Below are positions 1,205 to 50,511 of a stretch of 64,000 bases of DNA, in pieces (position 1 is the first letter of the stretch; every line of letters begins with the position of its first letter). This DNA is from Owenia fusiformis (lineage: Eukaryota; Annelida; Polychaeta; Sabellida; Oweniidae), in NCBI GenBank assembly GCA_903813345.2, contig CAIIXF020000001.1, positions 56,592,270-56,656,269 on the forward strand, in the 5' to 3' direction. The translations under genes and the position numbers were made by a program. The notes below the pieces were generated by a model. It was not told where the DNA came from. It ran no database searches and saw only the letters and a program-made list of their open reading frames with translations.

Positions 1205-1522
1205 CAACACATCTTTGCAGATCTCTGTAAGCTCGTTTTCCACCTTCTCTCTGTATTCTTTAGCCATGGCTTGCTTCCTTTCGCTACCCTCTGTTTTTTG
1301 CTCTATACTTGAAATTACTCTCCATGACGATCGTCGAGCTCCTACAACATTCTTGTATGCAACAGAAAGTAGATTCCTTTCCTCGTTTGAAAGCTCATCG
1401 GTGTCTCGTTCGGTGACATTTTTCATTGCTTTGGCCATATCGTCATAACGCTCTGCTTGCTCAGCCAACTTGGCTTTCTGTACGAGCTCCTCCTTCGTGG
1501 CATCTTTACCCTTTCCGCTCAT
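1205..1522 (-). CDS. 14-3-3 protein (zeta-like), first coding exon, partial gene
   Basis: This exon encodes the first 106 residues of a 14-3-3 protein, a dimeric adaptor that binds phosphoserine/threonine peptides in the cytosol and nucleus. The translation shows the N-terminal dimer helices ([19 protein letters not shown], about residues 12-30), the family signature [11 protein letters not shown] (about 49-59) and the phosphopeptide-groove stretch GARRSSWR (61-68). The start is the ATG at 1520-1522, preceded by a short acidic/basic extension ([11 protein letters not shown]) typical of invertebrate zeta-type forms. The frame stays open a little past the exon, but the family sequence breaks exactly at DVL, where a GT donor follows. 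The remaining roughly 140 residues should lie on other exons left of the window. It is head-to-head with MRTO4, 640 bp apart. Family assignment is firm; the isoform name is less so. Confidence 0.95.
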
Positions 1523-2162
1523 TGTTTCACTATAAATATAAGGCTATAGATTTACTGTTACTACAAAAATGATGCTGGAATGACAACCAAATATCTTCGA
1601 CCTCAGGAAAATGGCGGACTGTACAGATGACAACTTTCTCATATCCTTACGCCATTTTCATATAGTTTCAAAATACCTTCTTCCCAGAGATAGACAAATA
1701 AATTAAAAATCTCTTTTGGATATGATTTTGATCTTATTGTTTCAAATCTGGAATCTTTCAACTGTGAACGATCCGTTATTAACATTTATTGAAATGTATC
1801 GCGGATGAATATAAAGAGCACCGGCTCGAAAGTAGTGCGTCCCTGATTTTGAAATTTAATACACAGGTTGAACAATTTAAGATCAAAGCTTTTTTGACCT
1901 GAGTTGTTGCTAGGCTAGTTGCTATGCTCCATTAGCAGAACTCTTAGTTTCTCAATCATGAATTCTCACTTTAAGATGTTCCAAGAAGGATAAACGATCC
2001 TTTCCTGAAAAAACAAGCGTCACAACTTCTAAACAATGTCTGGAGATGCCATTAAAAATTTGCTAAAAATTCATAGAAATGACGTCATTTTTACTTCCGG
2101 GTGTGTTCTTCCGTAAGTGATCTTCCGGTTGACCTAGATCCACACGTGAAAATAAAAATAAA
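1523..2162. promoter_or_regulatory. Bidirectional promoter between 14-3-3 and MRTO4
   Basis: This 640-bp interval separates two divergent start codons. Visible motifs are a YY1-like AAAATGGCGGAC near 1609-1620, a full CRE palindrome TGACGTCA at 2080-2087, ETS-type ACTTCCGG at 2093-2100 with two more CTTCCG cores at about 2108 and 2122, and an E-box-like ACACGTGA near 2142-2149. Such clusters are typical of TATA-less housekeeping promoters. The motifs are seen directly. Shared bidirectional use is inference from the geometry. Confidence 0.6.
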
Positions 2163-5100
2163 ATGCCCAAGTCAAAAAGAGATAAAAAAGGTAAGAAATA
2201 GCATATAACGTTGCACAATGTTTTGTTTTATGGTAACACAATTTTGTCTAAGATGATCCCGACCTCGAAACAATCCTACTAATCAGTTGCAGTCGAAAAG
2301 TACAGAATCTTAGAATTTTTCAGTAGCTAGTCTAGATCTAGATTTATTCAGAAATGAATCCCCACAGGAACTTGTATCAACACCTGTCATCGATTGGTGG
2401 CCCAACCTGGAAGAATAATACCCATCTCCTATAATATATTCGAACATTACTGTATTCACGCCTTCTATAAACTGTAAACAAAGTCAACATTTCACCCGGG
2501 TATATTCGCGAACAAAACCCCTGGTAATACTGTACGTGTAATGTGTGACATCATTAGAACGCACCTTTGATTGACTTAAAACTAAGTGGTGGACCAATCA
2601 AAGCGTTCAATGCAATACATAATACAGCTTGAACTACGAACAAAATTATTCTTGCCGTTCCATAAATTCAACCAATATAGAGTCCATTTCACTGCTTCAT
2701 TTCGTCAGTAGAACGGCAAATATAAGAAATTGGGAGACCATTGTGCAATAATATATGGAAAAGTATATTCATAATGTACATGAATGACATTTGTACAGTG
2801 CTGGTATATATTAATTGATCAGTCGTTTAATTGGCATATTTTCTTGAATTTTAACATTTAATGTCCCAAACTCCCACAAACTGCAGAAAAGTATACACCA
2901 TAAATCATATTTACCAAAATTAGTGTCTCCAAGGCTTCACACCAGCGTATGCATTATGCATTTGTCACGAGTTTGAGCTGAAACTTCCCCAAAATGAAGT
3001 AGGCTAAGGGTAGTCTCTGCCAGGTTTGTTTATTGTGGTAAGCTTGTAAGTGCTCAGAAGCAAATAATTCATGTGCGCAAAAAAATCAAATAATATGATT
3101 GGTTTAAACTTTGCTGCACATGCGCACAATGTGTGCCATATTTTTCTAGTGATTTCGTTTCGTTTCATGGAGTTTCCGTTTCAGTGTAACTTCCGCAAAA
3201 ATGGCTGACCATGGACAGAATTAACAGGTAAAATCACTTCGAAATTTCAAAATAACTTTTTACCTATAATAGCAAAACTTTTATTTTATTTGTGCATTCT
3301 ATCTATCAGATAAGAGTCTCAGGGGTATGTAGGCAAATTCATTTTGGTAGGAGCACTCTGTTTAGTTTGAAAACGCACCCTTAATTATTATATATCAGCA
3401 CTGTATATCTTGGATTGCTTCTAGTTTGGCTTATAAAGTGTGTGGCCTCTTATATTTGGATGTTTCTCTGCCCTGTTATTTTCAGTAAGATTAACATGGC
3501 TGAAATTCTTCAAATAAGACGGCACAACCTTATCGCACAAAAAACTAAAAAATCTGAAATATACAAATGTCATTCATGTACATTATGAATATACTTTTCC
3601 ATATATTATTGCACAATGGTCTCCCAATTTCTTATTTTTGCCGTTCTACTGACGAAATGAAGCAATGAAATGGACTCTAATTATTTCGTCTTCTTGCGAT
3701 TTTTATTTATAATTCGATTAACGCTGTAATTGAGGAACTTACCGCTGTATTAATCAGAAGTTTGAGCAGATCACAAATTTTAAGTTGGCTTTGTTATATG
3801 GATGTTTCTTTAATAGATAAAGAGAAAACAAAAGTGTATATCTTGTGTTGTGGTTTTCTCCAACTTCCAGCCGGTGCGCTGGAATAACAATGTGTCAGAT
3901 AAGGATTTTTTCTGCTTGCCATTTTGGCCACTAGATTTCAGATACCACTAGCCAAACAGATTCTTACGAAACTCATTAATTATATCTAAAAAGTACAGAA
4001 TCAGCTATTTGTCAAACTTGTGTATCCAACTATATCAAAGTGTCATTTATTGCCTAATAAGAGCATGCCCCTGCCTCCAGAAATCTTTTGAAATTTAGAA
4101 CCTCTCTTGTGCAAACTGAGCGTGGTATTCCTCATAAAAGTTCTTTTAGGCCTCACATGTACATGTAGATCTACACAGAAAATTTAATGAAGAACAAAAG
4201 ATACATGTGGCTAAATAACAGTCAGCGCCATATTTAGCGCTGACCCCCTGATAAGCATTCACCCCGCTTCACAAAGTTCAAGAAATATCGAGGAATAACC
4301 AAGGGAAAGATCAATACCCGGTGATTTCAGCGGGAAGTGGCGTTTCGTTCAGTGGATGAGCTGCGCGCGCACGCATAAATGTGATTATCCAATATAATTA
4401 GGGGAGGGCTATTTGAAATAGTTTTTGGTCTCAGGCGCGACCCAGGGCTGTTGTCTTAAGGACATTTCGTTGAAAATGAGCCATACGGCTGATAATTGGT
4501 AAGAGTTTGCGATCTTATAATGTATAACTGTTAATTAGACACATATTTTGACATGATTCTGTTGGAAATAAGCTTTGAACCGAGAGATATTCACGATTGA
4601 TATGCACATTTTTGATTGTGCCATTGCTTTTCCATTGCACAATCCATGTATTGATAGAAGAAACATTAATAATGCAGATTGGTTTACCTTCAATACATGG
4701 CAGACACTACATATCGGTCTATTAATACCAGTTTGTGCCTTAAATAGTTTTATATTTCCATCCACGGCCTGGAGCCTGGGTGTGTTTGTCTCTTATGTGT
4801 ATGCTTGTGCATGGACTTCTAATCACTAGCAGAATTTAACATGATGCAAACTCGACATTATAACTCATGCTGTAACATTTTGACTTCGCTGGAAAACAAT
4901 AGGAATTATTTTTCTTGCCAATCAATCATGAATCACAATCAAAATTTCAGAATGAGCAATCAGGCAATGATCCAAATCAAGTTATAACATTATATGATAT
5001 TCAGCAAGAAGTCCGGTAGAAATACAGAATATTTAAACATCAAAGCTGAAAGTTAAAAGCTAATCTGTCAATTTTCTGTCTGCAAAAGAGCGTTTACATT

Positions 5101-8100: not shown

Positions 8101-11100
8101 CAGCATTCAGAAGATTTGAACTAATGGCCACTAATTAAAGCCACTAATATCATTTCTTGTGTGTTTTTGTTCGAAAATAAGACCAACTTGCGATTCAAAT
8201 TTTGAAGTGAGAAATGTCGACACCAGGGCTGATGCTAGCTTTGTTGAAAAATATTGAGTTGGAACCCTGGGATCCAATGCTCCTTCATCCTCCGATCACA
8301 GGGCTTCGAAATCCAGAATATATTCTTTCTTTTTACCCCCTGCGATAAGCAGTTAGCCTTTCCCCGATTAAGATCAAGAACTCGCGATCTGATTGCCAGA
8401 TTGCGACAGAAATCATGTATAAGTCATTGCACATAATAAGATCACATGATTCAGTTTAATCAGGCGCTTCCAATCGCTGATGACAATCTAGTCTCAAACC
8501 CAAAGTGCAATCTATGATAATATATACAGTAAAACCTGTGTATAATAAATATTTTTTTGCCATAAAATGTGTTCACTCTAGAGACAGGTGTTCACTAGAG
8601 AGAGGTGTGACCCAAGACAGGTTCCACTTTTCTTATTGTTCTTTACATACATTTGATGATAGGTAATATTTTGTGGGTGAATCTGAAATTGTTTGGATGA
8701 TATTTAAATATTGATTCTTTCTTTATATCCCTTCCATCTCATAAGAACTTAAGGGATAACCATTTTATTGATAAAGGTGGTAATTCCAGATTCTTGTCCA
8801 AAATAGATATTTCAAAAGATTTTTGAAACAATTTACATGTTGAAATATCACATTTAAGCTCACATTTAAACCAAACAAAGGATGCTGTCATATTTAAAAA
8901 GAGACATCTGTAAGTTGAAGAGATGAAAACCGGATTCATGCAAAATGAAGATTGAATTTCATTTTTTCTTGAGTGTGTATAAACCCCAGCTGATTCGTTC
9001 CACATAGAAAAATTGCCTGTGTGTGGGCTCCTTAACTTAACCTTTGCTAATCAATCTTTATTTTAATATTTGCAGTGTCCCTCACACAAACAAAGAAGAA
9101 AGGTTTTCAGCTAAAGCAACAATTAATCGAACAGGTAAGAGCTTTTCCCCAGAAACTTCAGTGTCAGATCATATGAACATATTCCTGAGAATATAATATA
9201 TTCAAATACATTGTAATATGATGATATTTTTGTTGAAAATAATTATATTAAGCTAACAAAGCTGGCCCTTTGAATGAAATTACTTACTTTTATCTTAAAA
9301 TGATATGTTGGACATTCCCCAATTAACTATCATACAGTAAAGTATTGTTACGTTGGGCCTTTGCCAAACCTTTGACTATGGTACAACACTAGACTTACAT
9401 TTTTGTATTTTATTGCAAATTGAACAAGACCAAATTTAACATGAATTGACAAACCTTAATCCACAAAGGATAACTAAAGAATATTAAACTCTATTAAAAA
9501 TATACAGTGAAACATGAATTAAAATTGAGGTAAAGAACAAATTATATTCAGTATTTAAAAATAAAGAGCAATGATTTTAGTTGTTGGCATCAAGCCAGTG
9601 TGACACAAAACTTCTAAGTTCAGTTAGTAGAAGACACTTGAAGTTGTATTCTTGGAAAAGATGTCGTTCACCTGCCAATATCTGTAGATAAGAATTGGAT
9701 AAACCAATTGAACCAAGGTCTATTGTCTTATTGCAAAATCCAATGGTATTATTTATCCCTACAGAGACTGTCCATGTAATGTTAAAATGAGTATTTAGCA
9801 ATGTAAGTACAACAGTATTTATTGAAAAATAAATGTGTTAGGCTATCTCACTTATTGTCCACTAGATTGCCATTTCTGCAGGATGAATACAATGTGGCCG
9901 CAAGTACTAAGAGGCTGTCATTCATTTTTAGGACTAAGATAGACAGCTCCTAATGGCAGGAAAGGCCACAACAGCTTGGTTCAATGTCGCAGAGTTCCAA
10001 GATGTATATAAGGAACTATTTAGCGATGAGCTGTCCTTACAGAAACATGCACTTGATCGTATCGATATATGGAGGAGTCGGTCCAACAATAAGCTATCAT
10101 CAGCCATTGACTGTACAGCATCTGTTGTTCTGGCTAAGATAGCAGATTCAACTGATGGGGATGATAAGAATAGTGTACAGTTCATGTATGGAATGGCTGT
10201 GTTGAGGTACGTCAATCTAATAGTTGAAAAACAACAAGAGGGAGCAAACTGGTCCAGACCGATGCACGTCATGGCTGAAGAGGTTGGTGTTCCTCAGTGG
10301 ATTGTAGACCTAAGGAATAATGTTGCCCATAATAACATGCCTAGTATAGCTGTACTAAGACTTGCTGCTGATTTTGCACTTGGCTGGCTGAAGCAGGAAT
10401 ACTGGGAGACACAACTTGAGGGTGTTGATGATTCAGAGTATGCACAGAGAAGTTGTGACTTGCTCAATGGTTACATAAAGCAAAGGGAACAAGAGGCGAA
10501 TGATGATGAGATTGATATGACAGAAACCTTGACTAACATTGATGATTTTGTCACCAAAAACGATTGCGAAATATTTCTTAATGTATTTGTATCAAGCTAC
10601 TTGTTTGCAAAGTTTCCATCAACCAACATGGAGAAAGATAGCCAATTGACATCGTGTTTGCAATTTTGGAAACCTATCCTCAGATTGATCAATAAGGCGA
10701 GATTGTCTTCTGTGTTGTTTTACACACTAATTGATAAGCTTACAAATAGTTATGACCCACTTATTCATAGAATGGCTTCCAAAATTGTCCAAGACCTCAG
10801 ATATGTTAGAGCAGAAGGTGCTATTTTCACAAATGCTCACAATGTGAATTGGAAGATAATGTTAGATAAATGTGTAGCCGCAAACAATGTTGAGGTCGTT
10901 GATATAATCAAGGCTATAATGCCAGAGGTACCTGGTATGACCAGGAACACCAAAGACAAGCTTGATGCCCTCACCGATCTGTACTCTGGGTCTACTATAG
11001 ATGACAGTGTCATGACTAGTGATGTTCATCGTTTGGACGATTTATCTCCTATAAATAGTGAGATATCCTATGTTATATCCAATGGGTCAGTAGATTGGTC

Positions 11101-14100
11101 ACGCTACCCTATTGGAACATGCCCGGCTGTTAACATATCGAGCACAAACTTAGAACTGGATTTGAATACTGTGACGCAATGTTGTGATTCAGCTACTCCA
11201 GTTGACATGGAGCTTTCTGATGGAGCCCCTTGCAAGCAGCGTACAGTTTTAACTGAACTGGAGGGACTTGGGAATTATATTAAACTGTTTTAATTCACTT
11301 AAATGTGGATGCCACACCTATTAGCCTAATCATGTATAACTTTTCAATAAATTCATTTTAAAAGATCATTAGATTGAAACACTTGATTGTTAATGGACAC
11401 ATTTGTTGGAAAATTTGTCAAAAATGATTTACCTCAAGAGCATCAATAACTTGTATTCCCAGGATTATGTTCAGTAAAAGCCAAAACAAAATCAATTGTT
11501 TTCTGATGAATGTTGATTTATTAACCTTACCTAGCTAACTTTAAAGCCAGCTGATAGGATTAAGAGGGACACTGTTGTAGTTAAACATGACAAAATGAAA
11601 TAAACCATGTACAAATTAATATTCTGTTCTCAAAGTGAATATTATCAGACTGGTGAAGATGCAGTTACCATGGTAACATGGAGGATATACAATAAAGCAT
11701 ATTGACAATTATGAAAACATCCTACTTACTCACCTTATGCTACTGAGTCTTTTGTTCTTGTAATGTAATTTATACTCAGTGGGACTGATAAGCTTTTCTT
11801 TGAGGTTCTTGGATGAAGTGATACTCCAGGAGTGTGCTCTGCTTCTAGATGGCTCTGTTCTTGTTTTTGACCATGTTTGAGACCTTGGCCTCTGTTTGTT
11901 TTCATCCAGCCCAATGGTATTCTCTATGAATGTCTGGTTAGCATTTAAACTCGCTGTTATTGATAGGTACATTCTCCCTTGTTTTGATGCACACAATTGC
12001 TAGTAGAATTTAATAAATTTCAGTAAGCATTTTTTGACTTCCAATCAGTATTTAATTTAAAAGAACTTGTTCCTGTTTTCAGATGGCAGCTTGATACTAC
12101 TTTGCCGTTGTCTGATTTTCAGGCATTTCTTAATGTACCATGTGTGAAAATAACAATTAAAAGTCATAGCACTTTCGTCATTCAATATTTCTTGTTTAAT
12201 AAGTTATAAGCTAATCTCTGGGCAAAGTTTTTTAGATCAATTTATGATTGTGTACATTGCACTTTTTCAACTCTACTTGTGTCATTTACTGTAAAACCTT
12301 TCTTATGAGAACATTGCAAGTACTGAATAGAAGTTTTCACATTGAGAGGTGTTCACATTTAGAACTTGTATGACAATATGAGAATCAAAAGGGTATTAGG
12401 AATGTAACTCAACCAGTGTTCACATTTCTCAGAGTTCACTTCTAGATATGTTCATATACAGGCTTAACTGCAAATTGCTTGGCAGAAGTAGGCTACTCAG
12501 TTGAAGTATTTTACAATTGTACAGTAATATATGTTTGAATTGATTATAATTGCATTGTAGAGTGAAATAATGAATCTGAATTTGTAAATTATAGCTTTGA
12601 ATGAACTTTCGAAGTCATTATACACTTAAAATCAGTTACAGGGAAATTTAAGTGAAATATAAATGGACATTTTAAGCAGGGACGGATATACCATCTACTA
12701 CTAAATATAAATCAAAATATAGAGCAAATGCACATTTAATGAACTTATAATATGACTTTGTCTATTGTTTCGTTTTTTTTTTATTATTTTCTTAATCAAA
12801 TTTCAGGGTTCTACTTTCCACTGATGAAATATTAAGGATCTCATTCATTAAGTCCTTCTCACAAAACAAAAATAAGTTTCATATTAAGACACCATTCATG
12901 ATAAGGATTCTGTTTGATTCAAGTTCAAACATAAATTTTACTAACTTCAAAGATGTTATATTGAATTCTAGTTGAATCTGGATAGTTGTGGATTATCTCT
13001 GTGGTAGCGACATGTATAGATTTTGAAATCTTATCTGCTTCTTATCTTGAACTGAACATTAGCTTGTACAAACTTGCTCCACTTGATAACTATTACTTGA
13101 ATTTTTGGCACAATATAGTAAACAAAATTGTAAAAATGACAAAGTGTAGGTTAAAATGCAAAATATTTGATATCATTACAAATTAATTGCATATCATGTC
13201 AAATGTGGCGAAAACAAAAATGTTAGAATTAACCACAAAGTATTCACTTCTAGTTAAACCCTCCTAAATACAGTAAAACCTGTCTAATTTGAATGCCTCT
13301 AGGACCAGCCAAAAGTGTTCAAATTAATAGGGGTTCAAGTCTCATGGTTTATAATCATGGAAGTCAATGAGAGAAAATAAATTTGAGACTGGGAAAAAAT
13401 GTTCACATTGAGAGGTGTTCAGATTAAAGATGTGTTCAGATACAGATTTCCCTGTATTTAATGATTAGATAACAGTGTGTTAGGAGAACAAAAATATGTA
13501 ATAGAAGTATTTCCCCATCTCATAATAAGAAAATCTTACATGGCAACTTTGCAAGGTGTGATTAGCAATATGACAGCTTTACCTCTAGAGAAGGATGTAT
13601 ATATGGTAGAATTGTATGGGGTTAAATTTTTGATAACAGACAAAACAAGCAAGCAAAATTATTCAAAACTTTAATGTAACATGGAAACAGTTGCCCTTAA
13701 AATACCTGAAGAAAATTTGTTTACCTTGTTCTTATGACACCACATGGTATTATACATGACAAATCAAAGAAGACTGATAATTTTAAAGTATCTACATTAA
13801 AGGTGGCCAAATTCTCAAAACAAGATATTTTTGTGATGACAACAGCTGAACTTGCTTCCCCCAAGGAGACCCCCCCCCCCCTATATGCCAACATGAGTTT
13901 AGCTCCTTGAGATGCATTATAATTGTAGATCCGCAATGAGGTTGACAAATATGCCAGAATATTCACATTCTCCGTGGAGAGCATGCGCAATGAGAAACTG
14001 AAAGATGTGAGACAGCAGTGGAAACATAGCAGGTACGTATAATATTATTTACATGAGCATAAAAATACAAATAGGAGCCAAACTGGAGATTCACAATGAA

Positions 14101-17100
14101 TGTCTATTTTCTCTCAAGATGAGGCCATACTAAAAGAAATTTCACAATCTTTGGGGGACATTTTCGCAGGGGGTAGCTCAAATGGGTGTAAAGTGTAAAT
14201 GTGTAGTATTTGTTGAATGCAATATTAAGGTAAATTTTGGATCGTCAACTCGTTATTATCATCCAATCATTCATGTTATTATGTAGTCATTTTGTTTATT
14301 TTTCCACAAAAGTTTAGTTCAACATAAAACTGATCACAAAAAGGGTTCTCACCAGGAATTTTTAGACCCCAGATTTTTTCATGGTATCGCAACTTCTCCC
14401 CCATGAGATCAGAGATATCCTATAAGTAAACTTTTCAAAATACGTATTTTCTCAAGAGTTTTACCACAAATAATGTGACAAAAATGTAAAATTAGACTCC
14501 GAAAAAAAACTCTACTCCGGAAAAGCTATTAGACTCTGGAGCAAGATGTTCTAAAGACATTAGACTCCGGAGAATCTCCGGAGTACAAAAGCCTAGTGAT
14601 GACCCTGCAAAATATTGATTCACTTGCACTTTTCAATTCCTTCATAATTCTTATGTATTTTGCTTGCTAGATTTTTCTTCGGCAAGAACAAGGTGATGTC
14701 AAATGCCCTAGGTGTAGACTCCGCTTCTGAGTACAAGGATAACCTCCACAAAGTCTCCCAGCAGTTACAAGGCCAGAGGGGGCTACTGATGACAAATAAA
14801 AAAACAGATGAAGTTGTTGAGTAAGGACTTTTATCATTATTTTCTAAAGTATTGAGATTTGATATTTAATAAATTAATATGTAACTTAGTATTGGGACTG
14901 TTTATAGCACGATATAGGGCATATAGCAGGGGTTTCACGAGAATTTCTCACAACAGGCAAATTAATGGAAATCATAAAATGGAAAAAGTTGAAAAGTCCC
15001 TTAAAACAACAGGCAATTTTGTGAAAATAACTGGTGAAAATCACCTGTTGCCTGCTGCTAATGAAACCCCTGTATAGGGATGTATGCCTTCATTGTAGGA
15101 GCAGAACATAACGCTGTGTCATATCACATGTACTAGTCTACAGTCATTATTCAACTAGTTGAAGATATGTCCTTAAAAACTGACATGTATCTTCATCATG
15201 TACAAAAATCAAGTTAATAGGCAAAAAGTCAAAGGTGTCTAACTGTCTACTGTTGTAAGTACGGGCAATTGGCCTTTGGCCAGACACTGAACTGATGATT
15301 TTATCTTTTAAGTACATATTAAATGTACTGCCATCTTTTGAACTATAATATGTTTTTTTTACAATTCTTAATGCTGTTTTAGAATAGAGCACTAACAAAA
15401 ATGTTTTGTTCAATGTGTATGTAGGACTGATGTTGTATAGCAATATTATACAGGGTGATCCAAAAATTGAGCCCTGAGTATTCGTAAATATCTTTTTATC
15501 ACACTTTGAAAAAGTGCTATATTGTCGTCTTGTGCTGTTGGGCGGGCGTGCGGGCGGGCGGCACATAAACCAAATCTTGTCATCAAATTTCCAGGATAAC
15601 TGCTTACCTGTTCAACTTGAAATTTTTACAGATGCAAGAGCAGACTAGTACCAAGATCTGATTAGGTTAAGGGCATGCTGGGTAAACTATGTGGCGGCCA
15701 TTTTGAATTTTTCAACAAATCTTGTCATCAAAATTCCTGGAAACCACTTATCCGTTCAACTTGAAATTTTTACAGATGCAAGAGCAGACTATTGCCAAGA
15801 TCTGATTAGGTTTTGGGTATGCTGGCTGAATTACATGGTGGCCATTTTGAATTTTTCAATTTGGCGGCCATTTTGAATTTTTCAACTTGCTCCAAATTGA
15901 CCAAATTTTTTTTAAAAACATCTACAAGTTCTCAGAAGTTCAAATCTGACCTTAGATTTCAGATTTGACCTTTCGTTCACCTTCAGTGACCTTGAAAAGG
16001 TCAAAAAGTTGATTTTCTAAATTGATATTTTGGATTTAAATTTAGGTCAGCTTAATTACAAAACACCAACTGAGGTCTGAAAAAGTGAAATTTTCAAGGT
16101 CAAAGGTCAAGGTCATTAAACTAGGTCACAGATTTGACCTTTCATTCACCTTCAGTGACCTTGAAAAGGTCAAAAAAGTTGATTTTCTAAATTGATATTT
16201 TGGATTTAAATTTAGGTCAGCTTAATTACAAAAGACCTACTGAGGTCTGAAAAAGTGAAATTTCAAGGTCGAAGGTCAAGGTCATTAAACTAGGTCACAA
16301 ATGATGTTATCCAAGTTTCTCAAAGTTTGAGACTACAAATCAATTCTTGTCATCAAAATTCCAAGAAAACCGCTAACCTGTTCAACTTGAAATTTTTACA
16401 CATGCAATAGCAGACTAGTGCCAAGATCTGATTAGGTTTAGGGCATGCTGGGTAAACTACGTGGCGGCCATTTTGAATTTTTCAACAAATCTTGTCATCA
16501 AAATTCCAGGAAAACCACTTATCCGTTCAACTTGAAATTTTTACAGATGCAAGAGCAGACTATTGCCAAGATCTGATTAGGTTTTGGGTATGCTGGCTGA
16601 ATTACATGGTGGCCATTATGATTTTTTCAATTTGGCGGCCATTTTGAATTTTTCAACTTGCTCCAAATTGACCAAATTTTTTTTTAAAAACATCTACAAG
16701 TTCTCAGAAGTTCAAATCTGACCTTAGATTTCAGATTTGACATTTTGCTGGCCTTCAGTGACCTTGAAAAGGTCAAAAATTTGATTTTCTAAATTTATAT
16801 TTTGGATTTAAATTAAGGTCAGCTTAATTACAAAAGACCTACTGAGGTCTGAAAAAGTGAAATTTTCAAGGTCGAAGGTCATCAAATTAGGTCACAAACA
16901 ATGTTATCTAAATTTTCCCAAAGTTCAAGACTACAAATAAATTCTTGTCATCAACATTGCAGGAAAACCGCTAACCTTATCAACTTGAAATGTTTACAGA
17001 TGCAAGAGCAGACTAGTGCCAAGGTCTGATTAGGTTTTGGCCATGCTGGGTAAATTGCATGGTGGCCAGTTTGCTCTTCAAAGTGCGATATTTATCACTG

Positions 17101-20100
17101 TGTGTCTTGTTTATTTTCCATTTTTATGTTACCACCAAAAGTACTGTATACTGTACATACTGTATAAGAATAGACTTCAATGTTTTTGAAAATGATGTTA
17201 GAAGTTCAGTCATCAGTGTCTGTAACAAATGTCAGGTTGTGACATTTTGGATGTTAGTGCCTGTATAATTTTGTGAAAATGTTGGTTACTCAAAGCATGA
17301 GCATTTCCCAAACTTTCATTCAAATGTGAACCATGGTTCAGAAATGCTAACTTAGTTAGCAGCAAAGGTAATGATGTTGTTACAGAAATATACCAGCATT
17401 CATTTTATTGACTGATTCGGAGAGCATGTGAAAGTACCATTTGCCTGCATCGTTCAGTCCCATTATTCTTGAATGTCTCTGATGACCTCAAAATTGCAAA
17501 CAACATGTACAATTGACTTACTGATATATTCTTTACCATAATATTTCCCAAAAAGTCTGCATCATGTTATCAATATCAAAGTGATCAATTTGTCACAGAT
17601 GTGTGGAATGCTCCTTGGTATTGGCAATCATATTCATAGAGAAATGAGGCACCAGCATCATGCATTAAGTTAACATACACTTCAGACAATATGGAATCTC
17701 TAGCTGGATAATAAAAAGTTATTTTTATGTAACATGCATGCATTGCCATTGCAGATGGTTTGATGACTTCAGAGTGCCAGAGTTTGCAAGGAGTGGTAAT
17801 GAGGCCACAGAACAGGTGATATTAGGGGAGGGTCCACTGACACGCTTCTCTCATGCCATGGAACCACAGCTCAGACAATTAGGTTTACCAACAAGTTTAA
17901 AAAAAGGTGATTAATTATACACATTTGTCTTGTGCTAATTATGTCACCATCATATGTGGTCACATATTGTTATAGTCTCAAACTTTTTGTGGATGGTTTT
18001 TAGCAGTTTGTATTCTATGTTTGGAGCTCAGTGTGTGTAACAAATGGTGTGTGGTGACATTTTGCATGGTAATGTCTTGTTTCTCTCTGTAGGCATACAA
18101 AATATTTAAGCAATCTTTGAAATAATTGATTGAGCCTGCTTCAATGTTCTATGGTTTTATGATTTTCACTTTCTTAAAAATTAAAATATTAAAACCAGTT
18201 GGTCAGCTTATGAATAATCTGTACCTCATTTACTGGTAATCAACCAATCAGAATAGTTCCCAGCCAACTCTTGATATGATCTGCTCAGAATTCTCTCTCA
18301 AATGAGAAAGACATATGGTCTGAACTGAACAGTTCATCATGTATCTCGGCTTGGGTACTGTTGCTGTACAATGTAGTCTAATATTGAACCAAGAGAAGAA
18401 TAACTCCCACAGAAAATATTTTTTTGATAATTTATTGTAAGCTTTGATGTGGTCCGTTTGAGCTGTTGTTGGTGTCAAATGAAAGATATGTAAGTCTTTA
18501 TTTTGCCCAAAAACGTTGAAAATACACAAAGTGAGCCCTTTAATACAGAAATCCACCAAAGTTAAACAACCATTAATGTTCTAAAATGGCAAATTTAATT
18601 AGATATGACCAAATTAAGTCAATTAACAATTAAATGTATATCTGTATATTGACCATTATGTACACTTAAGTTATATTTAATTATCCCAACGAACGAAGTT
18701 CGTTAGGGATATAGTGAAGCCCTCCGTCCGTCCGTCTGTCCGTCAGTCCGTCAGTCAGTCAGTCAGTCCGTCCGTCTGTCCGGAAGATAACTCAAATACT
18801 AGTTGACAGATTTTCTTCATATTTAGTGGAAATATGTATATTGGTGAATAGTTTTACGCTTTTTTTCAAGATGGCCGTCGCTTTAAAAATGACGGGACTT
18901 TTTCGCAAAAATCATAAATTTTTCATTCTAAACCAAAGTAATTAATATTATTGTTTGAAATTTTGGTAGTGTATTCACAACATTTATCTATTTCACATAT
19001 ATTCCTTGTTTTTCATCCTGACCCCCAGGGGCCATGTATGGGGGGGGCAGGAAAACAGAAATTTTCGCTAATTTTTAGATCTTTCTGAAGTATAGCTTTA
19101 TTATACTCAAATGAAAGGCAATTAAGAGTAGATTGCAAATATTGTATCTTTTTTCTGATTCGAGCCTCGTAAAATTCAAAATGGCCGTCTAATGTACGAT
19201 TTCGCAATAATATTTAGAGCCCTTCAAAGTATAGCTATATTATACTCAAATTGAAGGAATTTTGGAGTAGATCACGATTATGGTATTATTTTTCAGATTT
19301 GTACCTCAGAAAATTCAAAATGGCTGCTTTGCAGGAATTCGCAATTCTAAAATCTAATTTTTTCATTTTCAGGTAATTGATTGGAATTCGGTAATTGATA
19401 TTTTGTTCGTTGGGATGTGCTACTCCGCGGAGTTGCCGTTATCTAGTTAAAAAAATTTTTTTATCCTAGGTGTCATCCATCTTATATCAGAATACACAGT
19501 TTGTAAAAAAGGAGAGACTCTAACACCAGAGCAATGTAGAATTTTAGTAAGTTCATTTACGTTATTCGTAATCTTTAGACCTTTTCAATAATCCCTGTCA
19601 CATTTGGATTTTATATCAAGTATAAATTGGCATATGCTTGGACATATTGCTACCTACAACCAATGACATCATCAAAATGGCCAATATATCTCAGCTTCTT
19701 TGATGTACCAAAAGGTGACAGGGTTTATTGGAAATAAATAGATAAAGAACCATGAGAGCTTTAAATACCAATATATTCATTGTCTTATTTTAATCATTTA
19801 AATGCCCCTTGCTCTTCTACTTGCCCTTCTGGCTGCGTGAAATACCCATACAATTATTGCACTCAGCATCATTTGATATTTGTATAGTATTCTATGTACA
19901 TGTAAGTATAAAAATGAATGCATTATTTTATGTTTATTTTCAGAAATTATTTGACTACCAAATGGCTACATTTCATCTCACTATAGAAACAGTTTGGTCA
20001 AATGATGGCAAGTTTGATATTTTAAAAGATAGAAGTATCCCTCTGCGGCCGACAAAAGTTGTAATAAAACGTAAGTTCACAGAATCTAAAATCTGCAATT

Positions 20101-20508
20101 TTTGGGTGGAGAGGTGAACTGGATAAATTTTATACCTTCACTTAAACTGAGAATGTAATTTGGCATTTAAAAAAAAATGAAATGATAGCCTTTTCAAGAA
20201 ATTGTACAAATGCATATAATAATGCAGTTATTTTTGATAAGAATAATTGTCCGATATTTTAAAGAATATAGATGCTAACCAGTAGTTAGTTCCCTGATTG
20301 AAGTCCTATCAGAATGGAGTGTTTACAAAGAGACCTTCTGAACTTAAGTTTTTATATAAGATAAAAACAGCCATTCTTCAATTTACTTATATTCTGCATT
20401 GTGTTGTGTTTAGCTGATGATGATGGGGAGCCCATTGACACAATAGAAGATGCTGATGAGAGTCCAGATGAAGATGACATGCAAGAGGAGGAAGATTCTG
20501 AGGACTGA
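2163..20508 (+). CDS. MRTO4: mRNA turnover protein 4 homologue (60S assembly factor), 8 coding exons
   Basis: MRTO4 is a nucleolar paralogue of the ribosomal stalk protein P0. It occupies the P0 site on pre-60S particles until it is exchanged in the cytoplasm. Coding exons are 2163-2190, 9076-9134, 13929-14032, 14671-14820, 17755-17906, 19470-19546, 19944-20070 and 20414-20508. All junctions have GT..AG borders and the phases join to 264 codons including the stop (263 aa). The protein starts MPKSKRDKK as in vertebrate MRTO4. It continues with [13 protein letters not shown] and WKHSR (exon 3), FFGKNKVM (exon 4), [20 protein letters not shown] (exon 5), [15 protein letters not shown] (exon 6) and KLFDYQMA (exon 7), and ends in an acidic tail (exon 8). 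It is slightly longer than the human protein (239 aa). AATAAA lies at 20718-20723. Intron 2 contains LAS1L. A second copy of exon 8 lies at 22059-22153. Confidence 0.95.
2678..3679. mobile_element. Non-autonomous DNA transposon with about 115-bp inverted repeats
   Basis: The left end (about 2680-2800) and right end (about 3565-3678) are near-perfect reverse complements over roughly 115 bp, both beginning AGAGTCCATTTCA at the outside. The shared arm includes GTCAGTAGAACGGCAAA and a stretch ending in GACATTTGTA. The element is about 1.0 kb, has no open frame, and may be flanked by TA. It lies in MRTO4 intron 1. The long arms and short loop are MITE/foldback features; the superfamily is not clear. 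Confidence 0.75.
3680..6050. other. MRTO4 intron 1, central part, no gene seen
   Basis: A+T-rich intronic sequence without a recognisable coding exon. The short open frames around 4535-4829 and 5681-5981 overlap on both strands and have no coding character. No clear repeat borders were seen. Confidence 0.4.
6055..6215. promoter_or_regulatory. CpG-type promoter-like cluster inside MRTO4 intron 1
   Basis: A compact cluster of motifs known from constitutive promoters: a perfect NRF1-type GCGCATGCGC palindrome at 6060-6069 followed by a second ACATGCGCA, a TCACGTGACT E-box at about 6118-6127, the TCTCGCGAGA palindrome at 6189-6198, and a YY1-like AAAATGGCTGC at about 6202-6212. A good splice donor (GTGAGT at 6145-6150, plus strand) lies inside it. 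MRTO4 already has a promoter before 2163. This second cluster could serve the nested LAS1L gene or an unseen RNA. The motifs are seen; the function is inferred. Confidence 0.45.
6529..7133. mobile_element. piggyBac-type MITE with TTAA target duplication
   Basis: A 605-bp element flanked by TTAA on both sides (6525-6528 and 7134-7137). Its inverted ends read CCCTAGAAGCCCTAAGG and CTTAGGGCTTCTAGGG. The CCCTAGAA terminus next to TTAA is the signature of piggyBac-family transposons. There is no transposase frame. Two internal direct repeats of about 200 bp (starting near 6601 and 6806, each opening with GCTAGGATGTTCAAACTTTT) make up most of the body. It lies in MRTO4 intron 1. Confidence 0.85.
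7140..8524. other. MRTO4 intron 1, 3' part, no gene seen
   Basis: Intronic sequence without a supportable exon. A small local palindrome cluster built on CGTAACTTT/AAAGTT with GAATTC lies at about 8008-8060. Nothing else stands out. Confidence 0.35.
8525..8633. mobile_element. Short pogo/Tc1-like MITE (degraded)
   Basis: Begins TACAGTAAAACCTGTG and ends near a GACAGGTTCCACT that is a weak inverse of the start. It contains the phrase GTTCACTAGAGAGAGGTGT, which is related to the interior of the two better copies at 12287-12472 and 13269-13456. The TA boundary and CAGTAAAACC terminus resemble pogo-type elements. Confidence 0.45.
9076..9134 (+). CDS. MRTO4: MRTO4 exon 2 (last host exon before nested LAS1L)
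   Basis: Reads (V)[19 protein letters not shown], matching the lysine-rich N-terminal region of MRT4 proteins. It is bordered by a TTTGCAG acceptor and a GTAAGA donor. Exon 1 (28 nt) plus this exon (59 nt) gives exactly 29 codons. Together with exon 3 it brackets the nested gene at 9953-11293. Confidence 0.9.
9953..11293 (+). CDS. LAS1L: LAS1-like HEPN endoribonuclease (pre-rRNA ITS2 processing), nested in MRTO4 intron 2
   Basis: LAS1L is the nucleolar nuclease that, with the kinase NOL9/Grc3, cuts internal transcribed spacer 2 during 60S maturation. One uninterrupted frame of 446 codons carries the Las1 N-terminal HEPN domain: [15 protein letters not shown] (9-23), [17 protein letters not shown] (37-53), [12 protein letters not shown] (77-88) and [19 protein letters not shown] (103-121). 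The catalytic R-x4-H motif RNNVAH is at R121/H126. The C-terminal part is divergent but has a W-x3-PIG-x2-P patch ([13 protein letters not shown]) and ends LGNYIKLF. Human LAS1L is longer (about 730 aa) and yeast Las1 is about 500. AATAAA follows at 11346-11351. A TTTTTAG acceptor-like site at 9929-9933 precedes the ATG by 19 nt, so a 5'UTR intron is possible. It is on the same strand as the host gene. Confidence 0.88.
   Translation: MAGKATTAWFNVAEFQDVYKELFSDELSLQKHALDRIDIWRSRSNNKLSSAIDCTASVVLAKIADSTDGDDKNSVQFMYGMAVLRYVNLIVEKQQEGANWSRPMHVMAEEVGVPQWIVDLRNNVAHNNMPSIAVLRLAADFALGWLKQEYWETQLEGVDDSEYAQRSCDLLNGYIKQREQEANDDEIDMTETLTNIDDFVTKNDCEIFLNVFVSSYLFAKFPSTNMEKDSQLTSCLQFWKPILRLINKARLSSVLFYTLIDKLTNSYDPLIHRMASKIVQDLRYVRAEGAIFTNAHNVNWKIMLDKCVAANNVEVVDIIKAIMPEVPGMTRNTKDKLDALTDLYSGSTIDDSVMTSDVHRLDDLSPINSEISYVISNGSVDWSRYPIGTCPAVNISSTNLELDLNTVTQCCDSATPVDMELSDGAPCKQRTVLTELEGLGNYIKLF
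11734..11999 (-). CDS. Possible orphan exon on the minus strand, unknown product
   Basis: An open frame of about 88 codons on the minus strand ends exactly at a strong donor (AAG then GTGAGTAAG; the GTGAGT is at 11733-11728 on the minus strand) and begins after a weak acceptor (CTACTAG, at about 12006-12000). The product is rich in Ser, Arg and Lys ([18 protein letters not shown], then [18 protein letters not shown]). I do not recognise the family. SPTEYKLHY faintly recalls microtubule-associated repeat proteins, but this is weak. It would be a second gene inside MRTO4 intron 2, convergent with LAS1L. No partner exons were found. Confidence 0.28.
12287..12472. mobile_element. pogo/Tc1-like MITE
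   Basis: Starts TACTGTAAAACCTTTCT and ends ATACAGGCTTAACTGCA, which is an imperfect inverse. The interior shares TTTCACATTGAGAGGTGTTC with the copy at 13269-13456. It is 185 bp, non-coding, in MRTO4 intron 2. Confidence 0.6.
13269..13456. mobile_element. pogo/Tc1-like MITE (best copy)
   Basis: The left end TACAGTAAAACCTGTCT and the right end (reverse complement TACAGGGAAATCTGTAT) match at about 13 of 17 positions. It is flanked by TA. The interior holds TTCACATTGAGAGGTGTTCAG, shared with the copies at 8525 and 12287. At 188 bp it is non-coding. Confidence 0.7.
14937..15072. mobile_element. 136-bp MITE with CAGGGGTTTCA ends
   Basis: Perfect 11-bp terminal inverted repeats, CAGGGGTTTCA and TGAAACCCCTG, flanked on both sides by TATAG (14932-14936 and 15073-15077). 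The CAGGGG terminus is common in hAT-like elements, but a 5-bp flank repeat is shorter than the usual 8 bp. It lies just after MRTO4 exon 4. Confidence 0.65.
15449..15475. repeat. Solitary mariner-like terminus
   Basis: ATACAGGGTGATCCAAAAATT resembles a mariner terminal repeat, but I could not find a convincing partner end within 1 kb on either side. It is probably a fragment. Confidence 0.3.
15570..17090. repeat. Complex tandem repeat in MRTO4 intron 4, rich in AGGTCA half-sites
   Basis: A unit of about 145 bp starting TCTTGTCATCAAAATTCC and ending GGCGGCCATTTTGAATTTTTC occurs five times (about 15576, 15719, 16343, 16489, 16943). Between some of these sits a second module of about 170-190 bp carrying AGGTCA/TGACCT motifs. 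The composite repeats with a period near 770 bp. One module contains a perfect DR1 (AGGTCAAAGGTCA, 16097-16109) next to TCAAGGTCA. Degenerate versions follow near 16266 and 16868. No coding content. Confidence 0.75.
18683..19416. mobile_element. Element with ATCCCAACGAAC ends and (CCGT)n tract
   Basis: It is bounded by a perfect 12-bp inverted repeat, ATCCCAACGAAC at 18683-18694 and GTTCGTTGGGAT at 19405-19416. Just inside the left end are AAGTTCGTTAGGGATATAG and a CCGT/CAGT simple repeat (18722-18785). The interior holds two related 120-bp blocks (about 19070-19185 and 19210-19325), each with AGTATAGCT.TATTATACTCAAAT and ending in AAAATTCAAAATGGC. Similar elements are widespread in marine invertebrates (recalled, not searched). 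It sits in MRTO4 intron 5. Confidence 0.7.
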
Positions 20509-21342
20509 ACAGTAACACATAATCTTGTTAAACTACAACCTGTTGTACTTCATGAGTTTTAATTGAGATTACTCAGGTGGACATGTCAATGGACTTTTTA
20601 AGGAATGAAGATTTTACTTCAGTTTATACAATACCAGTTGATTGGTAGACTATTGACTAGACATTGCATGTTCAACTTTTAAGTGATGTGAATTGAGGAT
20701 GCAAACCAGTTTATAGTAATAAAATGAACTCAAGCAAAAGTATCATCTGCTGATTTACTTATATTTCATAGATCATTTTACATTTGATCATAATGTTCTG
20801 TATTGCTGTCCGTTGGCATAAGTGTGCTCATATTCTGTGTGCAGGGATTTGACATAAAAAGCTATTTTGTTGGCTGCATTCATCAAGACGCCACCCTGGT
20901 CTATTCAGACCCCAGACGTTGCAATGGTTGATGGTAACACATTTACCCTGAAATGCCCCCGGATTCTTAAAGATGGGTTTCAGAAATGATCTTACATGCG
21001 CTTTATATTTTCTGATTAACTTCCTGAATCTTTTCCTGAAATATCTTTTTCTGAATGATCTGAACCACCTTCCTCTGAGTCTCCCGCCTGTTGTCCACGT
21101 GAAATTATCAAGTCCATCATCATAATGAAGTCCTATCCACGCATCATCACCTAGCCTGTAATATAGGCAATGGTTCATTAGGGTAGCATGAAGTTCAATC
21201 TCCCCTTCATAACAGTATGATCATCACGGTGGAAAGTTCTTCTATTAAATGAGTGATTTATATTGATTGAAAATAATATATATTTTCTGTATCAAAATGT
21301 TAAAAGATGGGTTCACGAGACTAAAATATGTCTCTACTGTTT
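20262..21342. repeat. Tandem duplication copy 1 (MRTO4 exon 8 and lectin 3' exon)
   Basis: Nearly identical to 21899-23044. Both begin AAGAATATAGATGCTAACC and end GACTAAAATATGTCTCTACTGTT. They carry MRTO4 exon 8 on the plus strand and the lectin 3' exon on the minus strand. Differences are scattered single bases plus small indels. Copy 2 has an extra AATTCTATTTATTTTTGTTAAA-type stretch and a completed hairpin near its end. The copies are separated by a 556-bp MITE fragment. The low divergence indicates a recent event. Confidence 0.9.
20828..21155 (-). CDS. Distal copy of the lectin 3' exon (second half of C-type lectin domain)
   Basis: Encodes the C-terminal half of a C-type lectin-like domain (DDAWIGLHYDD, then the basic insert, then GKCVTINHC, WRLDECSQQ, FLCQ) and its stop. 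The acceptor ATTACAG directly before 21155 is intact, and the phase fits the upstream lectin exon at 23065-23239 just as the proximal copy does. It could therefore act as an alternative last exon. Compared with the proximal copy I see two residue changes (H for R and R for K), both conservative enough to keep it functional. Whether it is used is unknown. Confidence 0.7.
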
Positions 21343-21898
21343 AAAGTCCCCGTCTAAAGTTTGAAAATATTTTTTTATCATTCATTTACTATTTGTCATG
21401 ACTTAAAAAGTTATATTAGAGATTTTTGAAAAAAAAAAAATTTGAAAAAAAAGTTATGACTTTCTCAAATATTCAAATTTCCCGCCATTTTCCAAACAAA
21501 GTTGAAATTTTTTAACCATCGAATATTTCTTAATGCATTTCAAAAAAGATTATCTTTTTAACACCAATGTAAAGATTGAACAAAGGAAACACTATTTCAA
21601 TAATAAAATGCCATATTTAATGGGCCACTTCAATGTTTTAGCATATCAAAAATATTTTGCAACATTAGTGATGTCACTAACGTAGCAAAAACTTTTTGAA
21701 AAAAGTTGAAAATTTTTTTTCGATGTCAATCTTTTCTAAATATGCTAGACTTCAATAATAAACCAATGTTGATTATCTAACCAGGTTAAAAGGAAGAATA
21801 TATTATGTTTTAGATATCATTGTACCATTGGTTTCAATGAGAACTAAAATTTTGATAAGTTCATTTCTCGCTTATTTACGAACCGATTTTCTTAATTT
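21339..21898. mobile_element. Truncated copy of the CTTAAAGKCCCC MITE family
   Basis: Starts TTTAAAGTCCCCGTCTAAAGTTTGAAAATAT and matches in reverse complement the right two thirds of the complete element at 44398-45232, including the stretch around CCTGGTTAGA (44781-44790). It stops abruptly at the border of duplication copy 2. It lies exactly between the two duplicated segments. Confidence 0.75.
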
Positions 21899-22058
21899 CA
21901 AAGAATATAGATGCTAACCAGTAGTTAGTTCCCCTGATTGAACAGAAGTCCTATCAGAATGGAGTGTTTACACAGAGACCTTCTGAACTTAAGTTTTTAT
22001 ATAAGATTAAAACAGCCATTCTACAATTTATTTATATTCTGCATTGTGTTGTGTTTAG

Positions 22059-22153
22059 CTGATGATGATGGGGAGCCCATTGACACAATAGAAGACGCTG
22101 ATGAGAGTCCAGATGAAGATGACATGCAAGAAGAGGAAGATTCTGAGGACTGA
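22059..22153 (+). pseudogene. Second copy of MRTO4 terminal exon
   Basis: Encodes the same acidic tail ([20 protein letters not shown], then MQEEEDSED and stop) as 20414-20508, with only synonymous differences. It keeps its own TTTAG acceptor and an AATAAA at 22363-22368. It can only be used if splicing from MRTO4 exon 7 skips the first copy. I list it as a duplicate exon that is either alternative or redundant. Confidence 0.7.
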
Positions 22154-22473
22154 ACAGTAACACATAATCTTGTGAAACTACAACCAGTTGTACTTCATGA
22201 GTTTTAATTAAGATTATTCAGGTGGACATGTCAATGGACTTTTTAAGGAATGAAGATTTTACTTCAGTTTATACAATACCAGTTGATTGGTAGGGAATTG
22301 ACTAGACATCGAATGTTCAATTTTTAAGTGATGTGAATTGAGGATGCAAACCAGTTTATAGTAATAAATATGAACTCAAACAAAAGTATCATCTGCTGAT
22401 TTACTTATATTTCATAGATCATCTTACATTTGATCATAATGTTCTGTATTGCTGTTCGTTGGCATAAGTGTGC

Positions 22474-22801
22474 TCATATTCTGTGTGCAGGGATTTGACA
22501 TAAAAAGCTATTTTGTTGGCTGCATTCATCAAGACGCCACCCTGGTCTATTCAGACCCCAGACGTTGCAATGGTTGATGGTAACACATTTACCCTGAAAT
22601 GCCCCCGGATTCTTAAAGATGGGTTTCAGAAATGATCTTACATGCGCTTTATATTTTCTGATTAACTTTCTGAATCTTTTCCTGAAATATCTTTTTTTGA
22701 ATGATCTGAACCACCTTCCTCTGAGTCTCCCGCCTGTTGTCCATGTGAAATTATCAAGTCCATCATCATAACGAAGTCCTATCCACGCATCATCACCTAG
22801 C
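22474..22801 (-). CDS. Proximal lectin 3' exon with cationic insert
   Basis: Joins to exon 23065-23239 across a phase-2 border (AT then G, giving Met, then LGDDAWIGL). After FTWTTGG the expected 20-25 residue loop with EPN is replaced by a highly basic stretch (about WFRSFKKRYFRKRF, then RKLIRKYK, then SFLKPIFK) without any acidic residue. The domain then resumes with GKCVTINHC. The two duplicate copies keep this insert almost unchanged. In known families such Arg/Lys/Phe-rich segments recall cationic host-defence peptides; that link is inference. Confidence 0.8.
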
Positions 22802-41814: not shown

Positions 41815-43000
41815 ATGTAATTTTGATGATTATCATGATAGGCATTCATTTTTTGATGGTTATCATGTTAGCCATTCACGTTGTGATGCTTATCATGTTA
41901 GGCATTCATGTTATAATTTTTATCATGTTAGGCATTCATATTGTGATAATTATCATGTTGGCCATCCATATTATGATTATTATCATGCTAGGCATTCATA
42001 TTGTGATGATTATCATGTCAGACATTCATATTGCGATAATTATCATGTTAGGGATTCATATTGTGATGATTATCATGTTAGGCATTCATATTGTGATGTT
42101 TATCATGTTAGGCGTTTATATTGTGATGCTTATCATGTTAGGCATTCATATTGTGATGTTTATCATGTTAGGCATTCATATTGTGATGCTTATCATATTA
42201 GGAATTTATATTGTGATGATTATCATGTTAGGCATTCATATTGTGATGTTTATCATGTTAGGCATTCATATTGTGATGCTTATCATATTAGGCATTTATA
42301 TTGTGATGATTATCATGTTAAACATTCATACTGTGATGTTTATCATGTTAGGCGTTTATATTGTGATGCTTATCATGTTAGGCATTCATATTGTGATGTT
42401 TATCATGTTAGGCATTCATATTGTGATGCTTATCATATTAGGCATTTATATTGTGATGATTATCATGTTAGGCGTTCATATTTTGATGATTATCATGTTA
42501 AACATTCATACTGTGATGATTACCATGTCAGACATTCATATTGCGATAATTATCATGTTAGGGGTTCATATTGTGATGATTATCATGTTAGGCATTCATA
42601 TTGTGATGTTTATCATGTTAGGCGTTTATATTGTGATGCTTATCATGTTAGGCATTCATATTGTGATGTTTATCATGTTAGGCATTCATATTGTGATGCT
42701 TATCATATTAGGCATTTATATTGTGATGATTATCATGTTAGGCATTCATATTGTGATGATTATCATGTCAGGCATTCATACTGTGATGTTTATCATGTTA
42801 GGCATTTATATTGTGATGCTTATCATGTTAGGCATTCATATTGTGATGATTATCATGTTAGGCGTTCATATTGTGATGTTTATCATGTTAGGCATTTATA
42901 TTGTGATGCTTATCATGTTAGGCATTCATATTTTGATGATTATCATGTTAGGCATTCGTGTTGTGATGCTTATCATGTTAGACATTCATATTCTGTTCTC
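41815..43000 (+). repeat. 30-bp minisatellite, about 40 units, open in two frames
   Basis: The unit is TTGTGATGATTATCATGTTA plus GGCATTCATA, exactly 30 bp. It has variants at the base that makes GAT, GTT or GCT and higher-order blocks repeating every 240-270 bp (for example from about 42091, 42331 and 42601). Because 30 is a multiple of three, two plus-strand frames stay open for about 400 codons (41798-43015 and 41823-43034). One gives a YCDDYHVRHS decapeptide, the other a hydrophobic IVMIIMLGIH decapeptide. The commonest variable base changes the residue in the first frame (D/V/A) and makes I/F/L in the second. I see no promoter, intron or family match and favour non-coding. Confidence 0.9.
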
Positions 43001-48854: not shown

Positions 48855-49981
48855 GATGGGTAATCGATGTACAAGTCCCCTATATACGTCACTAATTAAC
48901 ACAAATAGTATTATTTACCTAAAATGAATAAAGTAGACAAATGCAAAGAATGCGTTCTGCCTTATCTTGGTTATGGCTTCACTGACTGATGGACGAGTTC
49001 CTTGATTCTACTAATGTGGTTTGCTATCTTAATGACTTGAAACCACAAACGATTACAACTTCTTCCTCATTGGAACAGCAACTTGGGACTGCTAGTTTTG
49101 GGACTGCTATAGTTTATGAATTTCTTTATAATCCATTCTTTTTAACTCAACGGCGTCTTATTTTCAGTTTTTTGAAAGAAATTCATGCCCTATGGTCAGA
49201 AGGTTTGGGGATAAAAATGAGAACACTTCGATAACTCTCTCTTTACTTATGAACCGTATGATTTTTTTTATTGTTATAGCATGTACTTGCAATAACTTTG
49301 GATTTTCAGTCATGCTGAAAACCAGATAAAAGATTGCCGTATGTTGAATTAGTATGAAGAGAGTCTTCATGTGAAATGGGCTAATGCTATCGTACCAATG
49401 AACGCAGGTGGAATCGCCGGTCCCCTGTGTGCACCAAACATGATGATTAGTCCCTTGGAACCTGAAGGCAAATTGAATTCCACACTTCCTCTTTTAGCAA
49501 CATTTGGAAAAGTCGATAGCGCTTGTCTTTTAATTCTTGTTTCCCATCTACGGTTTGCCGCCCCTTGTTCTCAAATCGTTTATAATTAATGCATAACCTG
49601 GAACCCCATGGTTATCCCTCGGAGTTCTTCAAATGATTTTTCGAAAGTTGTAAAAGCGTCAAATTTGGATCATTTATGGTTTATAGGAGTTGATAATGAT
49701 ATAAATCTCCGGCGATCTCGGATTACGTAAAAGGACGTACATAGTCAGATTAGGGTTAAACAGGCTCCCATATATGGCATTTTAGCTGTAGTAGCTCTGC
49801 TCGCATTTCAGGAGAAACACCGAGTCAGATGTGACTACCACTGATTTCAAACTCTTTAAAGAATTCCTTTTGAACGAGAATTTTTTGTTATTTAATTCAT
49901 GAATATTTGATCAGACGAAACCATCCAGGTATTAGCTGAACAGGGCAAGAAACGAATGGTCCCGATATTGATTCGGTTGAT
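48855..49981. other. Non-coding stretch before the assembly gap
   Basis: Frames at 48989-49234 and 49371-49589 are open, but I recognise no family and see no splice context. Confidence 0.3.
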
Positions 49982-50481: not shown

Positions 50482-50511
50482 TAACTTTCTCGTGAACATT
50501 CCCTCACTCAC

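Follow-up and report, generated by a model that had tools for sequence, protein, structure and literature searches.

A Single-Exon LAS1L Gene in Intron 2 of MRTO4 in Owenia fusiformis: Gene Structure and Possible Routes of Expression

Introduction

Is a gene for one 60S-assembly factor that lies inside an intron of another an independent transcription unit, or is it a second output of its host gene? This question is raised by a 64,000-nucleotide (nt) stretch of the annelid Owenia fusiformis (contig CAIIXF020000001.1, positions 56,592,270 to 56,656,269, hereafter the window, in which position 1 is the first base), where an intact frame for the pre-60S factor LAS1L lies within an intron of MRTO4, which encodes a second such factor, on the same strand. 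An earlier note on this DNA, made from its letters, had proposed that the two genes are nested, that they could be co-regulated or expressed by alternative splicing or polyadenylation, and knew of no description of the arrangement. Here we consider whether the nested gene is genuine, whether it is the only LAS1L of the genome and from which promoter it might be transcribed.

Identity and Integrity of LAS1L

The LAS1L frame runs from an ATG to a TAA codon as a single open reading frame (ORF) of 446 amino acids (aa), and its coding region is without introns. Across 9953-11293 no stop codon occurs in this frame, while 30 and 53 occur in the other two forward frames and 20 in the one reverse frame tested. 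The encoded protein matches the Pfam family Las1 (PF04031) over profile positions 1-148 of 149 with an E value of 4.9e-44, and its domain score of 150.3 bits stands against a curated cut-off of 22.7. In a search of the protein against structure chains, solved PDB chains named LAS1L, which we take to be human, were matched at E values of 4.4e-34 and 5.4e-34. A second Pfam row, bacHORMA_2 (E 0.017), was under its own cut-off and was taken as noise. Because an in-frame TAA lies upstream of the ATG at 9935-9937, leaving an open frame of 451 aa compared with 446 aa from the ATG, 9953 is most likely where translation of the protein begins.

Both R121 and H126 of the R-x4-H HEPN motif are present, and the catalytic motif, RNNVAH, is encoded at 10313-10330. 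The Las1 HEPN domain is common to this protein and the solved chains, whereas its length differs from theirs (446 aa here, 734 and 502 aa there), as does the residue following the motif Arg, which is Asn here and His both in the LAS1L chain (RHELTH) and in the 502-aa Las1 chain (RHWGTH), presumably that of yeast. The catalytic residues of yeast Las1 are reported to include Arg129, His130, and His134 (PMC10942766), and among HEPN domains at large the residue after the motif Arg is in most cases N, D, or H (PMC3710099). Nuclease activity therefore appears likely, although the site is unlike that of the two Las1 proteins compared.

Beyond the HEPN domain, Las1 has a central coiled-coil domain, which is poorly conserved, and a short C-terminal tail (PMC10942766). 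Residues 160-363 and 364-446 of the Owenia protein, each searched alone, gave no Las1 match, and the 734-aa chain was paired at 379-405 and at 638-677 only below threshold. From the stop codon, the polyadenylation signal that follows it, and the pairing with 638-677, we infer that the C-terminus is complete. An AlphaFold model built from the one sequence reached a predicted local distance difference test (pLDDT) value of 35.9 and was discarded.

The Host Gene and the Nesting

The host gene MRTO4 comprises eight exons between 2163 and 20508 (Table 1), which when joined encode 263 aa without an internal stop, and all of its introns (7/7) are bounded by GT and AG. Over residues 1-219 its product aligns with the chain named "mRNA turnover protein 4 homolog" (286.8 bits, E 1.3e-84), which is better than any match to chains named P0 (at most 48 bits); two chains labelled uL10 scored 148.5 and 147 bits, and by length and score these look like Mrt4. 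All eight genome matches to the MRTO4 protein fall in this locus, namely on exons 2-8 and on a copy of exon 8. The whole LAS1L coding region is situated inside intron 2, on the same strand.

Table 1. Features of the MRTO4/LAS1L locus, in positions of the window.
Feature	Position	Strand	Remarks
LAS1L	9953..11293	+	Single coding exon, 446 aa, HEPN motif R121-N-N-V-A-H126
AATAAA, likely LAS1L polyadenylation signal	11346..11351	+	First A lies 53 nt beyond the end of the stop codon
Candidate LAS1L 5' untranslated region (UTR)	9882..9952	+	Downstream of strong candidate acceptor, AG at 9880-9881; consensus scoring only
Weaker candidate exon start	9932	+	Consensus scoring only
Candidate small 5'UTR exon, speculative	9765..9802	+	Acceptor before 9765, GTAAGT donor after 9802; could join to 9882
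MRTO4 coding exon 1	2163..2190	+	
MRTO4 exon 2	9076..9134	+	
MRTO4 intron 2	9135..13928	+	4794 nt, contains LAS1L
MRTO4 exon 3	13929..14032	+	
MRTO4 exon 4	14671..14820	+	
MRTO4 exon 5	17755..17906	+	
MRTO4 exon 6	19470..19546	+	
MRTO4 exon 7	19944..20070	+	
MRTO4 exon 8	20414..20508	+	Stop at 20506-20508
Tandem copy of MRTO4 exon 8	22059..22153	+	Differs at 2 of 95 nt; encodes the same C-terminus
Divergent promoter region (putative)	1523..2162	.	Between the 14-3-3 ATG (~1522, minus strand) and that of MRTO4; CpG-rich

The structural claims of the earlier note are thus borne out: the LAS1L frame is intact and carries a Las1 domain, both HEPN residues are found at positions 121 and 126, MRTO4 exons 2 and 3 bracket the gene within an intact eight-exon coding sequence, and the same-strand nesting and the AATAAA at 11346 are both seen in the sequence. 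We hold with high confidence, as far as the genomic sequence can tell, that this is a genuine and functional LAS1L nested in MRTO4.

Two neighbouring features touch the host gene. A tandem duplication (20256-21248 and 21895-22898, 96.1%) takes in MRTO4 exon 8 together with its 3' flank, and the acceptor is kept in the copy; because of this and because the same C-terminus is encoded, the copy could possibly serve as an alternative last exon. Upstream, the first coding exon of a 14-3-3 gene (PF00244, 5.4e-34; about 1209-1522, minus strand) lies head to head with MRTO4, the two ATGs being ~640 bp apart.

Copy Number and Origin

A profile search of the whole genome (498,259,871 bases) with PF04031 gave one match, the LAS1L locus, and a search with the LAS1L protein gave two, this locus and a match of 22% identity (E 1.53), which was taken as noise and rejected as a second copy. 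A comparable search with the MRTO4 protein recovered exons 2-8 and the exon 8 copy and missed only the nine-codon exon 1. Since these MRTO4 matches, of 28-53 aa, reached E values of 6e-4 or better, a LAS1L paralogue divided among several exons would probably have come up as well. COX1 had no match in the assembly, which may only mean that the mitochondrial genome was left out. Fox genes gave 38 matches, or about 32 genes once merged by eye, on nine of the contigs C1-C12 (none on C2, C7, or C12), including clusters of four on C8 and of three on C10 and a pair separated by 30 kb on C3; for Owenia fusiformis, 35 Fox genes were reported, on nine of 12 chromosomes (none on 4, 9, or 10), with foxQ2 duplicated in tandem on two of them and foxC linked to foxL1 (PMC9539403). 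An intron-containing LAS1L elsewhere, which the earlier note had itself raised against its proposal, was found in the 498 Mb by neither the profile nor the protein search, and the frame at 9953-11293, the only LAS1L found, is probably a working gene. A single-copy gene of a core pathway is then found, in the assembly as searched, only within the intron of another gene, and for this reason a change in MRTO4 intron 2 could affect both genes.

Human LAS1L has many introns, and retrocopies are often intronless and nested. Retroposition is likewise suggested here by a gene that is intronless and inside an intron, and a retrogene origin is plausible, although unmarked. The best shared 9-mer flanking LAS1L was matched in 114 of 200 resamples, so that no target-site duplication beyond chance was found, and no A-run of six or more was present in about 300 nt at its 3' side; such marks could have decayed. 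Neither genome search recovered an intron-bearing parent gene, and LAS1L may be an old retrogene, a product of intron loss, or a long-standing intronless gene. A silent or decaying retrocopy, which the single ORF and its nesting might also suggest, is very improbable, since the 446-codon frame is intact, the Arg and His of the HEPN motif are kept, the usual flanking marks were not found beyond chance, and no other LAS1L was found in the genome. That an assembly error placed LAS1L into MRTO4 is barely credible: the recent tandem copy of exon 8 indicates that repeats exist in the region, yet intron 2 with LAS1L matches only itself within the window, save for one 24-nt stretch, and the locus is on a 62 Mb contig with no N between 8000 and 14100.

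CpG Pattern and Candidate Splice Sites

The observed/expected (o/e) ratio of CpG is 0.91 in the 14-3-3/MRTO4 divergent promoter region, 0.16 over the 500 nt preceding the LAS1L ATG, and 0.12 in the intron beyond LAS1L, while the maximum in the 1.5-kb upstream flank is 0.33 for LAS1L against 1.09 for MRTO4. Followed along the locus in 500-nt windows, the ratio is ~0.8-0.9 at the 14-3-3 and MRTO4 starts, mixed in intron 1, and mostly 0.06-0.44 for 8.5-18.5 kb. Exceptions inside MRTO4 are found at 15.5-16.0 kb (0.53, overlapping a tandem repeat) and at 18.5-19.5 kb (1.29 and 0.91, repeat-like as judged by eye only). Promoters of Owenia fusiformis were reported to be hypomethylated and gene bodies methylated (PMC11292947), and the low CpG over 8.5-18.5 kb resembles that of germline-methylated gene bodies. 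For comparison, 30 Ras-family loci, of 136 genome matches listed, were considered as controls, of which the 16 with a match from profile position 4 or earlier were kept and the 14 later-starting ones dropped; their 1.5-kb flanks mark protein starts and not mapped promoters. The CpG maximum exceeded that of LAS1L at 15 of these 16 gene starts and exceeded 0.5 at 13; at one, L023, it was at or below the LAS1L value. At this locus (G000:C6:10244766-10245248) the Ras-family match lies in a single open frame, and its 5' flank has a CpG maximum of 0.14, below that of LAS1L; L023 may be a further gene inside an intron.

An acceptor ending at 9881, 71 nt upstream of the LAS1L ATG, scored 5.5, higher than any of the seven MRTO4 acceptors (-2.1 to 3.5), and of the 285 AGs of intron 2 only one scored better. 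Sites as strong number 22 on the plus strand of the window (64 kb), i.e., ~0.03 are expected per 75 nt, while the acceptor at 9932 is unremarkable in strength, with ~0.1 such sites expected in the same length. Candidate donors lie at 2112, which scores only 0.2, and at 2190, 9134, and 9802. When MRTO4 exon 1, or exons 1 and 2, were joined to 9882 or to 9932, a stop was reached before the LAS1L ATG in all four cases, once as a TAATG overlap. Three AGs between the in-frame stop and the LAS1L ATG permit an in-frame fusion in two of six joinings; these sites score -4.2 to -6.8, under the weakest MRTO4 acceptor. An MRTO4-LAS1L fusion protein was consequently judged unlikely, its in-frame options needing very weak AGs, but hybrid transcripts are possible.

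Possible Routes of LAS1L Expression

If LAS1L depends on its host, its mRNA would come mainly from polymerases starting at the MRTO4/14-3-3 promoter. The acceptor before 9882 would be joined to a donor close to the 5' end of MRTO4, to that of exon 2, or to that of the small candidate exon, the transcript would then be cut downstream of 11346, and translation would begin at 9953, past any short upstream frame, while removal of the whole of intron 2 would yield MRTO4 mRNA. The choice between splicing and polyadenylation would in this way divide one primary transcript between two 60S-assembly factors. The CpG-poor flank of LAS1L and the strong acceptor speak for, though they do not prove, LAS1L transcripts that start at the MRTO4 promoter and arise by alternative splicing and polyadenylation, and we would give this route, as the main source of LAS1L mRNA, an even chance. 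Several observations weigh against it. CpG-poor 5' flanks also occur among the controls, where one of 16 has a lower maximum than LAS1L (L023), two have a lower mean (L023 and L035), and three remain under 0.5. The splice sites were scored with approximate frequencies, set up after looking, and because genuine MRTO4 acceptors score down to -2.1, the score separates poorly. Moreover, the start codon of LAS1L has a C at -3, and in any LAS1L transcript that includes MRTO4 exon 1 the ATG of MRTO4 would open a short frame ahead of the LAS1L start, which should impose a cost on translation.

The same locus fits nearly as well a CpG-poor promoter of LAS1L's own within intron 2, perhaps with a 79-nt 5'UTR intron at 9803-9881, in which case the gene would be an independent unit and the two would meet only in passive interference. 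LAS1L has a likely polyadenylation signal of its own, the GTAAGT donor at 9802 suits such an intron, as does the acceptor preceding 9882, and KTI12, nested in human TXNDC12, was active in a minigene without a host-side promoter (PMC3192792); against this stands the CpG profile, which shows no rise over the 1.5 kb upstream, at a maximum that nearly all control starts exceed. We rate a promoter of its own a little short of even. Of the co-regulation that the earlier note suggested, then, a plausible splice and polyadenylation route from MRTO4 transcription stands, and an independent promoter would account for the locus almost equally. Whether the pairing of two 60S factors has any meaning is a further matter, and we lean towards a chance insertion without functional link, the shared process being a coincidence. 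Nested genes are common, at about 10% in Drosophila and 1% in human, and most are functionally unrelated to their hosts (PMC4394429). With many nested pairs in a genome, it is not improbable that one of them shares by chance a process as broad as 60S assembly. CLP1_P, the family to which the partner kinase of Las1 belongs, has its best matches (NOL9 or CLP1) on contigs C7 and C5 and none in the window, and hence there is no sign of a wider 60S-pathway cluster. The shared strand, on the other side, favours shared expression in principle, and a chance insertion is compatible with transcription from the MRTO4 promoter, as both can hold together. A stronger proposal, in which an operon-like gene with one promoter and a splicing or polyadenylation choice between LAS1L and MRTO4 couples ITS2 (internal transcribed spacer 2) cutting with stalk assembly and is maintained by selection among related animals, seems unlikely to us.

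Other Features of the Window

Apart from the nested pair, frames of a non-LTR (long terminal repeat)-type retrotransposon are present on the plus strand at 56274-57377 and 57655-59520, with endonuclease (Exo_endo_phos_2) and reverse transcriptase (RVT_1) domains. Long tandem arrays occupy 41820-42992, 51218-52403, and 53577-55100 (a 30-nt unit repeated 39 times; 32- and 157-nt units), the first of which has two frames free of stops over about 400 codons, as its 30-nt period permits. A run of N within 49897-50499 is crossed by two artificial ORFs.

Comparison with Known Nested Genes

Literature matches listed for LAS1L together with MRTO4, for LAS1L gene structure, and for intronless or nested Las1 do not name the arrangement in the parts that they present, and we know of no report of a LAS1L/MRTO4 nested pair. 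The pair therefore seems new, in agreement with the earlier note, but only the pair would be so, because single-exon genes nested on the strand of their host have already been described as a class. An early human survey counted 158 protein-coding nested genes, of which 53, about a third, were tandem; when these 53 were re-evaluated, 31 were accepted as individual tandem genes (PMC3192792). In Mcts2, nested in H13 at an imprinted mammalian locus, transcription of the nested gene drives intronic polyadenylation of the host (PMC13309782); the promoter there is imprinted and controlled by DNA methylation, whereas the 5' flank of LAS1L is CpG-poor.

KTI12 and TXNDC12, whose functions are not, to our knowledge, linked, and VAChT and ChAT, which share a strand, are the nearest parallels to consider. 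KTI12 is a tandem single-exon nested gene, likewise in intron 2, for which cryptic acceptors 86 and 251 nt upstream were joined to upstream exons in the minigene; its activity there without a host-side promoter is counted as a difference from the present locus (PMC3192792). VAChT, situated in the first intron of ChAT, is as here a single-exon coding gene in a host intron and of the same pathway, and this functionally linked pair is conserved in nematode, fly, and mammal, with multiple promoters and alternative splicing (PMC3053374). In contrast, LAS1L is located in intron 2, after coding exons of its host, and both genes encode general ribosome factors. Should the MRTO4 promoter indeed be shared, a single choice between splicing and polyadenylation would set the ratio of two pre-60S factors, and the locus would be an animal parallel of the cholinergic locus, for a general cell pathway.

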